Shown here: positions 2,820 to 6,513 of the stretch, piece after piece
Numbering within the stretch: position 1 is the first letter of the stretch
Layout of the letters: each line of letters starts with the position of its first letter
From: an uncultured Reyranella sp.
GTDB taxonomy: Bacteria > Pseudomonadota > Alphaproteobacteria > Reyranellales > Reyranellaceae
Assembly: GCA_937915145.1 (NCBI GenBank)
Contig: CALDNT010000225.1
Coordinates: 1-34,545 of the forward strand
Reading direction: 5' to 3'
Length of the DNA stretch: 34,545 nucleotides
Made by a program: the position numbers and the translations under genes
The notes under the pieces: generated by a model
What the model was told of the DNA's origin: nothing
What the model saw: the letters and a program-made list of their open reading frames with translations, nothing else
Databases searched by the model: none

Positions 2820-3386
2820 TCAGTTCGAGGCGATACCCAGCGGCACGCCGGCGGCGTCGAGTTGCGGTTCGGGACGCAGCACCACCGACTCAGGCGCCTC
2901 GACCTCTGGCAACGGCTTGCTCGGATCGACCGCCTTGACCATCGCCACGATCCGCTTGGCGCCAGAGGCGGCTTCCTCGGCAACCAGCCGGCGCCAGCCA
3001 TGCTTCTCCCAGTACGCCACGTCGCCCGGCAGCGTCTGGACGTAGAGCATATTGCACCCCCGTCCCGCAGCCAGCGTGCGACAGCGCTCGAGCAGGAGCT
3101 CGCCGATGTGATGGCCGCGGAAGCGCTGGATGACGGCCAGCCGTTCGGGCATGGCGAACGACTGAAACCAGCGCAGGCGGACCGTGCCTACCGGTTCGTC
3201 GCCGACATAGGCGATGACGTGAGTGGCGCCGAAATCGTGACCGTCGAACTCCTCGGAGTACGGCACGTCGAGTTCACCGATGAAGCAGGCCGCCCGTACG
3301 GCGAAGGCCTGCAGAGAGTCCTCCATCCTCATGGCAAGCTTGGTGGTGACGGCCGCGCCGCCGATTGATTGTGCGATTGTGTTCAT
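2820..3386 (-). CDS. GNAT-fold acyltransferase, paralogue A
   Basis: A 188-residue GNAT-type N-acyltransferase. The N-terminal half has the pattern VRAACFIGELDVPYSEEFDG-H-D seen in many GNATs, then the beta4 strand GTVRLRWF. The acyl-CoA loop reads QRFRGHHIGELLL (near residues 86-98), close to the classic Q/R-x-x-G-x-G/A. The last about 25 residues form an extension with VLRPEPQLDAAGV, which recurs in the adjacent paralogue. A GAGGGAGA ribosome site precedes the ATG. It is the third gene of a - strand operon, 12 bp after paralogue B. The acceptor substrate is unknown. Confidence 0.8.
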   Translation of the reverse strand: MNTIAQSIGGAAVTTKLAMRMEDSLQAFAVRAACFIGELDVPYSEEFDGHDFGATHVIAYVGDEPVGTVRLRWFQSFAMPERLAVIQRFRGHHIGELLLERCRTLAAGRGCNMLYVQTLPGDVAYWEKHGWRRLVAEEAASGAKRIVAMVKAVDPSKPLPEVEAPESVVLRPEPQLDAAGVPLGIASN

Positions 3387-3398
3387 CTGATATCTCCC

Positions 3399-4022
3399 TC
3401 AATTCGCCCGACGACCGCCGTCCCAACCCGCATGCGGATTGCTTGCGCCCCGCTCCATCGACTGCTCCAGGACTCCCGGCGCATCGAGTTGGTCTTCCGG
3501 ACGGTTGAGCACCATCGGGTCGGTAAATACTGTCGGTATGTGGTCCGGATCGACGCTGAGGTCGCAAGCAAAGGCGCCATATTCGTGATCCGAGAAATGA
3601 AATATCCTGTCGTCGACCTTATGGAAGCCGCCACGCTCCATGATCTGCCACAGGCGATGCTGCGAATGCAGGTAGGCCTTGGGATAGCCCTTCTTGCGGG
3701 CGAACTCCTTGGCCCACTCGACGAAGGGCATGAACAGACCCAGCGAGCGGTAGCGTTTCAGAATGACCGCGCGCTCGAATTTGGCGAAAGTGGCAAACCA
3801 CCTCAAACGCATGCATGCCGCCGGCTCACCGTCGACATATAGTATGAGATGGCTGGCAGAGTAGTCGTTGCCGTCGAATTCCTCCCAATACGGACAATGC
3901 TGTTCGCCCATGTAGACAGCAGCGCGCAACATGTAGCACTGCAGCATTTCGTCGGAAGTCGAAGCAAGCTTGATGGTCACGGCGGGATGGTTCGATAGCC
4001 CCGCAGCTAGTTGCACTGTCAT
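3399..4022 (-). CDS. GNAT-fold acyltransferase, paralogue B
   Basis: A 207-residue GNAT-like protein, clearly paralogous to its downstream neighbour. It shares the VTIKLAS start, LRAAVYMGEQHCPYWEEFDG-N-D, the MRLRWF strand, and a C-terminal extension with VLNRPEDQLDAPGV. Its acyl-CoA loop is altered (KRYRSLGLFMPF): the glycine after arginine seen in paralogue A is replaced, so acyl-CoA binding may differ or be lost. It starts 1 bp after the stop of the membrane/nucleotidyltransferase gene, so translation is probably coupled. The pair may work as a heterodimer (inference). No specific substrate can be assigned. Confidence 0.78.
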   Translation of the reverse strand: MTVQLAAGLSNHPAVTIKLASTSDEMLQCYMLRAAVYMGEQHCPYWEEFDGNDYSASHLILYVDGEPAACMRLRWFATFAKFERAVILKRYRSLGLFMPFVEWAKEFARKKGYPKAYLHSQHRLWQIMERGGFHKVDDRIFHFSDHEYGAFACDLSVDPDHIPTVFTDPMVLNRPEDQLDAPGVLEQSMERGASNPHAGWDGGRRAN

Positions 4023-4023
4023 G

Positions 4024-5319
4024 TCAGTCCCCCTCGGTCAGTACTCCGTTATCGTTCCGGAAACGGCGGCCCCCAGCCGCCACCACCGGAGCATTCGCAG
4101 TCAATTGCTCGAGCACTTCGGTAACCACGGCCGAGGTCATTCCCTTGGTCCCACCCCGGATCGCAGTTGCTGAAACGGTATCGCGACGCAGGATCCGCCA
4201 CGGGTAGATCCAGCCGCATTCGTCGTAGATCTGGCGGACGGTCATGCCGCCGATATCCGTGCCGTGCAGACCGTGCAGCCGCGCCCCGGGATTGGCTTTC
4301 CTGATCTCGGCGATTACGCCCTGGAAGCCCTTCTTGTTGTAGGTCTCGCTGGAAAACGCGACCTCGACGCGGTTGCCAAGACCGGCTTCCGCCAACGCGA
4401 GTTCGATCAGCACCTTCCGCGTCTCGGGCGGCAGGAACATCCGCCCCGACGGGAAGTAGTCGACATTCATGTCGGCCTTGTCGGTGGTCTCGTAGACTTG
4501 AAAGCCGCTCTGCATCCGGCCGACCCGGAGTTCGCCCTTGCGGAACGCCTCGGCATGGATTCGCGGCACCAAGGTCGGATGGATGACGACCTTGTCGAGG
4601 CCGCGCTCGTCCATCGCCTGCCGCACCATGGCCAGATGGGTGTTGTGGAAGGGGTTGAAGGTGCCGAAGAAGAGCCCAATGCCGCCCTGGGGCGCCAGCT
4701 TCGAGCGGAGATCCGACAGCAACCCGATGCCGAACAACACCGCGCCGAAGCCGAAGCCCACGACCAGGAAGGCCTCGCGAGCAACCGGTATCCCGGCTGT
4801 GCCGAACGATGCGAGTACGATGTTGACTGCCAGACCCACCAGCACGTTGCGGTTCGCATCGCCCACGCCGCGTGCGACGAGGTACATGCCGAGATACTGG
4901 GTGCCCTGCGAGGCGAGCGTCGTGATGAGCGCGGCTGAGGCGAACCCGCCCACCGATGCAATGCCATCACGGTTCAGTGCTCCACCCCACAACATAATCC
5001 CGAATACCGCCAGATTGAACCCGTACTGCGGGATAAACCTTCCGAGCCGGCCAGCCGTGACGAAGCCAAACAGATTGCTGGCCCACAGGTCGGCTTTGTT
5101 GCTGAGCTTGGCGTAGCTCGGCATGAACACCCCGACGAAGACTGACACGCCAATCAGCGACGGGTTAGCCCAACTGCCGTGCGCGTACGCATAGCTCAAG
5201 TAAGAAAGAAGGGCAGCGAATGCCGCCATGCGAGTCGAAGGACTGCGCACATAGCGGACGAACCGGTCGACGAACGTCGAATACCTGGTCGTCTTGTTGT
5301 CCGAGCCGACGACGGCCAC
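4024..5319 (-). CDS. Membrane protein fused to NadD-like nucleotidyltransferase
   Basis: A 431-residue two-part protein. Residues about 30-205 are hydrophobic with roughly five to seven membrane spans (for example about 31-45, 54-67, 100-114, 122-150, 158-172, 182-202). Residues about 212-400 look like an HxGH-class nucleotidyltransferase of the NadD type: GLFFGTFNPFHNTH near 215-228, HGTDIGG near 352, and SATAIR at 383-388 in place of the family ISSTxIR. The HxGH motif reads H225-N-T-H228, so the glycine is replaced by threonine while both histidines stay. The family transfers a nucleotidyl group from NTP to a phosphate; the substrate here is unknown. The start is GTG. It heads an operon with two GNAT genes and is divergent from a LysR gene. 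I do not know a named family with this membrane fusion. Confidence 0.7.
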   Translation of the reverse strand: MAVVGSDNKTTRYSTFVDRFVRYVRSPSTRMAAFAALLSYLSYAYAHGSWANPSLIGVSVFVGVFMPSYAKLSNKADLWASNLFGFVTAGRLGRFIPQYGFNLAVFGIMLWGGALNRDGIASVGGFASAALITTLASQGTQYLGMYLVARGVGDANRNVLVGLAVNIVLASFGTAGIPVAREAFLVVGFGFGAVLFGIGLLSDLRSKLAPQGGIGLFFGTFNPFHNTHLAMVRQAMDERGLDKVVIHPTLVPRIHAEAFRKGELRVGRMQSGFQVYETTDKADMNVDYFPSGRMFLPPETRKVLIELALAEAGLGNRVEVAFSSETYNKKGFQGVIAEIRKANPGARLHGLHGTDIGGMTVRQIYDECGWIYPWRILRRDTVSATAIRGGTKGMTSAVVTEVLEQLTANAPVVAAGGRRFRNDNGVLTEGD

Positions 5320-5411
5320 CGAAGCACCCTACCCCGTTAGAAGCGTCAATCGGAATATCCACAACCGGTAGATTGACTAACGAATACGAGGACTAAATAA
5401 GCGACGCTGGG

Positions 5412-5440
5412 CCTATACGATCGGTGAAAAAAGTCGTCTA
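5412..5440 (-). promoter_or_regulatory. Candidate sigma70 promoter of the membrane-NT/GNAT operon
   Basis: On the - strand, TAGACG (5440-5435) and TATAGG (5417-5412) are separated by 17 bp; each matches four of six consensus bases. Transcription would start near 5405, leaving a leader of about 85 bases before the GTG at 5319. The whole 5320-5553 gap is visibly richer in A+T than its surroundings, as expected for a divergent promoter region shared with the LysR gene. A partial dyad AGACA-N4-TGTCA lies nearby (about 5454-5468) and could be a regulator site. This is weak, motif-only evidence. Confidence 0.3.
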
Positions 5441-5553
5441 ATGGCCTACGAATGAGACACAAATGTCATTTCGCCGATAATGGCGTAAGGTAAACCACGA
5501 GGCTTCATTCAAGTAAACTTCGAGCCCGCAACCTTATTGTATCGATTGTTACT

Positions 5554-6513
5554 ATGGTCACGACACCCCCACGCAAGAGCAAAGTCCCAAATATTCTGGG
5601 TGACTGGGACGACGTTCGTTTTTTCCTGGCCGTCGCCAAGACCGGCAGCTTCAGTGCGGCCGCGACCCAGCTCAACACCAAGCAGACGACAGTCGGCCGG
5701 CGCATCCAGGCCCTCGAGCGCCGGTTGGGCGCCAAGCTGTTCGATCGTCACCGCCACGGTATGGAAGTGACCCCTGCCGCACGCGGCGTGCTCATGCAGG
5801 CCGAATCGATGATGTCGAACGCCACTTCGATCGAACGTCATCTCGCCGGTCTCGACCGCGAGATGGCGGGCATCGTACGCATCGCCGCCACCGAAGGGCT
5901 CGCGGCACACTGGCTGGTGCCGCGGCTGAGCCAGTTACGCCGTTCGCACCCGGACATCATCGTCCAGGCGATCGCGGGCGATCAGGTTCTCGATCTCGCC
6001 ACCCGTCAGGCCGACCTTGCGATCCGCTTCTTCCGACCGACATCGAACCAGCTCGTGGCCGCACGAGTCGGGCAGTTCAACATGTCGATCCTCGCCTCCG
6101 CGTCCTATGTTGAGCAGTACGGCTTGCCGCAAAAACTCAGCGACCTGCGCGAGCATCACATTGTTGATCACACAACGCTGCACACACTGCCGGCAATGAA
6201 GCCTTGGAGCGAAGCCGTCGAAAGCAGCACCAACATCGTCCTGCGCACCAACTCGTCGTACGCGGCCATCGCGGCAGTGCAGGTAGGCTACGGTATTTCG
6301 GTGTTCCCCGACTACGTCACCAAATCGTCGACCCTGATCGCGGCACCAATCGACCTGAATATCATCCGTGATATCTGGTTGGTCAGTCACGAGGAGACCA
6401 ACAAGGGGGTCCGCATCCGCACGGTGATCGACTACGTTCGGGAGCAGTTCCGCATCGACGAGCGTGAGTGGTTCTCCGCGTCTTTGCGCGGCAATTCGAT
6501 GGTGGCCGCCTAA
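5554..6513 (+). CDS. LysR-family transcriptional regulator
   Basis: A 319-residue LysR-type regulator. The winged helix-turn-helix is at about residues 18-77 (DVRFFLAVAKTGSFSAAA, then TTVGRRIQALERRLGAKLFDR), followed by a linker helix and a periplasmic-binding-protein-like effector domain (VRIAATEGLAAHWLVPRL near 110 onward). The effector domain keeps the family layout, including YGISVFPDYV near 250. The gene is divergent from the membrane-NT/GNAT operon across 234 bp, and LysR regulators commonly control a divergent target, so that operon is the most likely one. Its stop overlaps the stop of the convergent HIT gene. Confidence 0.92.
   Translation: MVTTPPRKSKVPNILGDWDDVRFFLAVAKTGSFSAAATQLNTKQTTVGRRIQALERRLGAKLFDRHRHGMEVTPAARGVLMQAESMMSNATSIERHLAGLDREMAGIVRIAATEGLAAHWLVPRLSQLRRSHPDIIVQAIAGDQVLDLATRQADLAIRFFRPTSNQLVAARVGQFNMSILASASYVEQYGLPQKLSDLREHHIVDHTTLHTLPAMKPWSEAVESSTNIVLRTNSSYAAIAAVQVGYGISVFPDYVTKSSTLIAAPIDLNIIRDIWLVSHEETNKGVRIRTVIDYVREQFRIDEREWFSASLRGNSMVAA

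Follow-up and report, generated by a model that had tools for sequence, protein, structure and literature searches.

A predicted membrane-embedded relative of NadD with an altered HxGH motif, encoded beside GNAT-fold acyltransferases in Reyranella

The stretch of DNA analysed here (the window; 34,545 nt, contig CALDNT010000225.1 of assembly GCA_937915145.1) comes from an uncultured Reyranella sp. It includes a gene for a membrane-nucleotidyltransferase protein, which we name TMNT. TMNT and the two GNAT genes that follow it form a tight operon with a divergent lysR gene, and this arrangement is found in nearly all Reyranella loci. The features are as follows:

4024..5319, minus strand: TMNT gene, GTG start, 431 amino acids, from reading of the open reading frame
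4699..5241, minus strand: predicted six-helix membrane domain, residues 27-207, from an AlphaFold2 model and hydropathy, with no Pfam family
4027..4683, minus strand: HxGH-type nucleotidyltransferase domain, residues 213-431 (PF01467; NadD fold)
4636..4647, minus strand: codons for H225-N-T-H228, with Thr or Ser at the third place in 56/56 distinct homologues
4156..4173, minus strand: codons for S383-A-T-A-I-R388, kept in homologues and equal to the motif of the genome's ordinary NadD
3399..4022, minus strand: GNATa, a GNAT-fold acyltransferase (PF00583 just at the cut-off), 1 bp after TMNT
2820..3386, minus strand: GNATb, a second GNAT (PF00583), 12 bp beyond GNATa
5554..6513, plus strand: divergent LysR-type regulator (PF00126/PF03466)
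5320..5553, no strand: lysR/TMNT intergenic control region with the block ACAATCGATACAA near the lysR start, from an alignment of 14 loci

The TMNT reading frame runs through GTFNPF-H225-N-T-H228 and VSATAIR (S383-R388). PF01467 matches residues 216-248 with 24.6 bits, against a Pfam cut-off of 21, and among sequence-based family matches NadD is the best, though weak. The original prediction had proposed superposing a structure model on NadD. In an AlphaFold2 model of the full-length protein (mean pLDDT a modest 66), residues ~210-407 superpose on NadD crystal structures with Z ~10 and an rmsd of 3.2-3.6 Å over ~150 residues; such models were built from Reyranella sequences only. The reading frame, the PF01467 score and the fold confirm the predicted NadD-like domain with HNTH in place of HxGH. 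With both histidines kept in a Rossmann-like nucleotide-binding domain and GxFxP ahead of them, TMNT is a member of the HxGH nucleotidyltransferase superfamily. Since residues 354-394 of the model have pLDDT <50, the acceptor pocket cannot be read from it.

TMNT homologues were found in 38 loci, almost all labelled Reyranella or near relatives. Within the genus, 57/60 genomes have a match, in each case as a single copy. Beyond Reyranella, homologues occur in three alphaproteobacterial families (f31, f68 and f94) and in one family of another proteobacterial class (f236). The plasmid collection that we searched contains no TMNT relative; with a divergent homologue as the query, it yielded only a 41-residue match to NadD. 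One draft genome (G009) encodes only TMNT residues 162-430, close behind lysR (L054:7219-8007), and the loss of most of the membrane domain there represents either an assembly error or a real truncation.

Is the altered nucleotidyltransferase domain still an enzyme? A dead domain, retained as a nucleotide sensor or scaffold, could account for the missing HxGH glycine, and the original prediction held that random change in the motifs among homologues would indicate such a domain. We aligned 56 distinct sequences spanning five bacterial families and two classes, looked for random change, and did not find it. The third place of the motif is Thr in 44 sequences, Ser in 12 and never Gly, whereas the second place varies (N, K, V, R, I or E). 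Both histidines, GTFNP, HG[ST]DxGG and SATxxR are retained down to 34% identity. A GxD motif is also conserved among the homologues. In both TMNT domains, dN/dS is 0.11-0.24, indicating purifying selection. Because the Thr/Ser is fixed, neither histidine nor the arginine of SATxxR has been lost, and dN/dS is low, TMNT does not look like a dead enzyme and is not peculiar to a single genome. We consider a retained but inactive domain very unlikely: every catalytic residue other than the glycine is present, and the glycine itself is replaced by Ala or Trp in single NadDs. Hence, as far as sequence conservation can tell, the domain is apparently active, in line with the altered but working enzyme that had been predicted.

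The altered motif raises the question of how far TMNT resembles NadD. Glycine occupies the third HxGH place in 28 of the 30 NadDs that we sampled; of the other two, one has Ala and one has Trp. The glycine, described in the original prediction as usually needed, is therefore preferred rather than obligatory, and its absence does not bar TMNT from the superfamily. In NadD-like proteins at loci L067 and L126, the motif reads HEWH and HTAH. The Reyranella genome that encodes TMNT also encodes CoaD and an ordinary NadD, the latter in a proA-nadD-rsfS locus that rules out TMNT as the organism's only NadD. The motifs of this NadD are HDGH and SATAIR. The partner motif S-[SA]-T-x-x-R is present in TMNT as SATAIR, with its arginine, as had been predicted, but since the ordinary NadD has the same letters it is not a deviation.

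Other features do separate the two proteins. TMNT scores 26 bits with TIGR00482, against a cut-off of 112, and is also far under the cut-offs of the other NCBIfam NadD and NadR models. The NadD motif [YWF][TSM]x[DNH]T ([ST]YTxDT type) is present in 26/30 NadDs but absent from every TMNT; in NadD structures it belongs to the NaMN side of the pocket. Conversely, YFPxGxxF and HG[ST]DxGG are found in nearly all TMNTs and in no NadD, although part of the contrast between the two groups depends on sequence alignment across a strongly diverged stretch. A maximum-likelihood tree resolves TMNT, NadD and CoaD as three distinct groups, with support of 100/97 for TMNT and a TMNT branch about as long as that of CoaD. 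Together, the presence of an ordinary NadD, the missing NaMN-side motif and the distinct signature place TMNT in a clade of its own, with an acceptor that is probably a molecule other than NaMN. Because the NaMN-side motif is missing, the term “NadD-like” holds for the fold and the nucleotide-binding half, and we restrict it to these.

Comparison of neighbours across families identifies a GNAT as the constant partner of TMNT: a gene of this kind lies next to TMNT in Reyranella, in the three other alphaproteobacterial families and in the family from another class. GNATb accompanies GNATa in nearly all Reyranella loci and is absent from those of other families. Loci of the other alphaproteobacterial families consist of lysR, TMNT and GNATa; the lysR gene is divergent in nearly all of them and lies downstream in one. 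In f236 the order is a BesD/HalD-like oxygenase, GNAT, TMNT, a flavin monooxygenase and an EamA transporter, and the cluster is also adjoined by a LuxR-type regulator, an isopenicillin-N-synthase-like oxygenase and an M20 amidohydrolase. Since these further neighbours differ among distant loci, no single pathway is visible. Amide hydrolases recur among them and, with the GNAT partner, lead us to infer a small amine- or amino-acid-related metabolite. In Reyranella, all 14 aligned loci share the block ACAATCGATACAA (window 5535-5552, immediately before the lysR start) with few or no differences, whereas most flanking positions vary; this block is likely to be a LysR operator.

In GNATa of Reyranella, the acyl-CoA loop is degenerate (RYRSLGLF) and lacks a clear RxxGxG, while some distant partners retain a GxG-like loop, in a comparison that leaves out rows L012, L022 and one L033. 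Hence, the chemistry of the partner is uncertain. One GNAT partner weakly matches the model for the N-acyl amino acid synthase FeeM. Two loci (L133 and L134) have genes for a LuxR-type regulator, BesD-like and isopenicillin-N-synthase-like oxygenases, a flavin monooxygenase, PNPOx-like and fatty-acid-hydroxylase proteins, and sugar-type ABC transporters, possibly forming a natural-product cluster.

The neighbourhood also bears on whether TMNT could serve NAD salvage as an additional NaMN/NMN adenylyltransferase, bound to the membrane and perhaps importing pyridine nucleotides or nucleosides there. The NadD fold and the best family matches fit this explanation. So does an isochorismatase-domain hydrolase encoded after GNATa in five loci of f31 and f94, from a superfamily that includes nicotinamidase. 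However, this hydrolase has no match to the NCBIfam nicotinamidase models. Given also the ordinary NadD in the genome, the absence of the NaMN-side motif from all TMNTs, the low NadD/NadR scores and the separate clade, we regard a role in NAD salvage as unlikely.

The N-terminal domain is predicted to form six long helices (residues 27-47, 53-80, 91-111, 126-149, 155-175 and 180-207; mean pLDDT 77). Kyte-Doolittle profiles show 4-5 strong peaks per TMNT homologue, and the charged residues of the domain lie mostly at the presumed cytoplasmic side. Helix prediction, hydropathy and charge distribution make about six membrane crossings the likeliest count, within the five to seven spans originally predicted. 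As far as prediction tells, then, the hydrophobic part does span the membrane, and it is a conserved domain. ASxGxQ is kept in 48/49 sequences and GxG[DER]xxxN in 46/49; these motifs and a conserved RxxRFxxQxxxN stretch are at or near the presumed cytoplasmic side, the same side as the catalytic domain.

We could not assign this domain to a known family. Pfam scans gave weak matches only (phage holin, best E 0.009, 5/19 members), and a membrane-domain profile retrieved nothing significant from PDB sequences. The top Foldseek match, PIP synthase 5d92, is insignificant (E 0.36), and the best VIA-align Z is 6.1, without a strong fold match; apart from PIP synthase, neither list holds a nameable family. 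The domain appears to be an unnamed family. This, and a sequence that has diverged most in members from outside the Alphaproteobacteria, would suit a plain anchor attached to a soluble domain that works alone, an explanation compatible with the catalytic half of the one that we prefer. We find it doubtful, since the polar residues are invariant across alphaproteobacterial families, dN/dS of the membrane domain is as low as that of the catalytic domain, and a standalone copy exists.

The standalone copy (204 aa) is encoded in one alphaproteobacterial genome, directly after lpiA- and acvB-like genes. At this locus (L076:5555-10206), an lpiA/mprF-like gene, an acvB/virJ-like gene and the lone domain lie in a row. 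The lpiA-acvB operon of Agrobacterium both makes and removes lysyl-phosphatidylglycerol (PMC13197417). The position of the lone domain hints at a lipid-related role. TMNT might be a bifunctional lipid-headgroup enzyme like archaeal IPCT/DIPPS, with the cytoplasmic domain activating a headgroup and the membrane domain moving it onto a lipid. Fusion of a nucleotidyltransferase to about six helices, conserved charged residues close to the cytoplasmic side, the PIP synthase match, insignificant though it is, and the lysyl-phosphatidylglycerol genes are all consistent with such an enzyme. In contrast, the CDP-alcohol phosphotransferase signature DxxDGxxARx(8)GxxxDxxxD is found in 0/49 sequences, even DGxxAR being missing, VIA-align gives no strong fold match, and the lone domain lies beside lpiA-acvB-like genes in just 1/43 genomes of that order. 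We therefore think this explanation quite unlikely.

What is the function of TMNT? We propose, with a probability of roughly 55%, that it is a nucleotidyltransferase embedded in the membrane and activates a small, GNAT-linked metabolite that is not NaMN. The proposal builds on what computation has established: the fold, the retained catalytic residues, a third motif place fixed as Thr/Ser, selection against change in both domains, the constant GNAT neighbour and the separation from NadD. TMNT would be an integral membrane enzyme with its C-terminal domain in the cytoplasm, where this domain would work as an HxGH-superfamily nucleotidyltransferase. It would transfer a nucleotide, probably AMP and presumably from ATP, to a small polar metabolite that may come from, or be modified by, the GNAT encoded next to TMNT. 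The six-helix domain would keep the enzyme at the membrane, and the conserved polar residues close to the cytoplasmic side suggest that it may also bind the substrate or hand it on. More tentatively, what the attached domain activates with a nucleotide might be used by the membrane domain itself, as a new kind of catalytic or transport module. One polypeptide, together with a dedicated GNAT, would then both activate the metabolite and move it into or across the membrane.

The conservation of this clade, its fusion to a membrane domain, its distinct signature and its constant GNAT partner point to an activated metabolite not yet described. TMNT genes may be called NadD by automatic annotation, a label that our tests do not support, and we found no earlier description of the family in the open-access literature that we searched.

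NadD-type enzymes (TIGR00482/PF01467) are well known and soluble. TMNT shares with them the fold of residues 210-407, GTFNPxHxxH, GxD and SATAIR. Unlike them, it has a membrane domain, Thr/Ser for Gly, no NaMN-side motif, an extra stretch with YFPxGxxF ahead of R301 and ~40 fewer residues before SATAIR, and it falls in a separate clade. Eukaryotic NMNAT and ATP sulfurylase likewise belong to the HxGH superfamily and have a residue other than Gly at the glycine place; however, these enzymes are soluble, their substrates are known, and their kinship with TMNT is at the superfamily level only. Bifunctional enzymes of the IPCT/DIPPS type combine a nucleotidyltransferase with a CDP-alcohol phosphotransferase of about six membrane helices, but the signature of the latter is absent from TMNT. 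Finally, in neighbourhoods of non-ribosomal pathways, the gene for a HIGH-motif (HUP) enzyme lies beside genes for GNAT, amino-acid hydroxylases and hydrolases (PMC2922099). TMNT loci are similar, in that a nucleotide enzyme of the HUP superclass is encoded beside GNAT, oxygenases and hydrolases. The enzymes of PMC2922099 are paralogues of class-I aminoacyl-tRNA synthetases, whereas TMNT resembles NadD, carries SATxxR and has a membrane domain.
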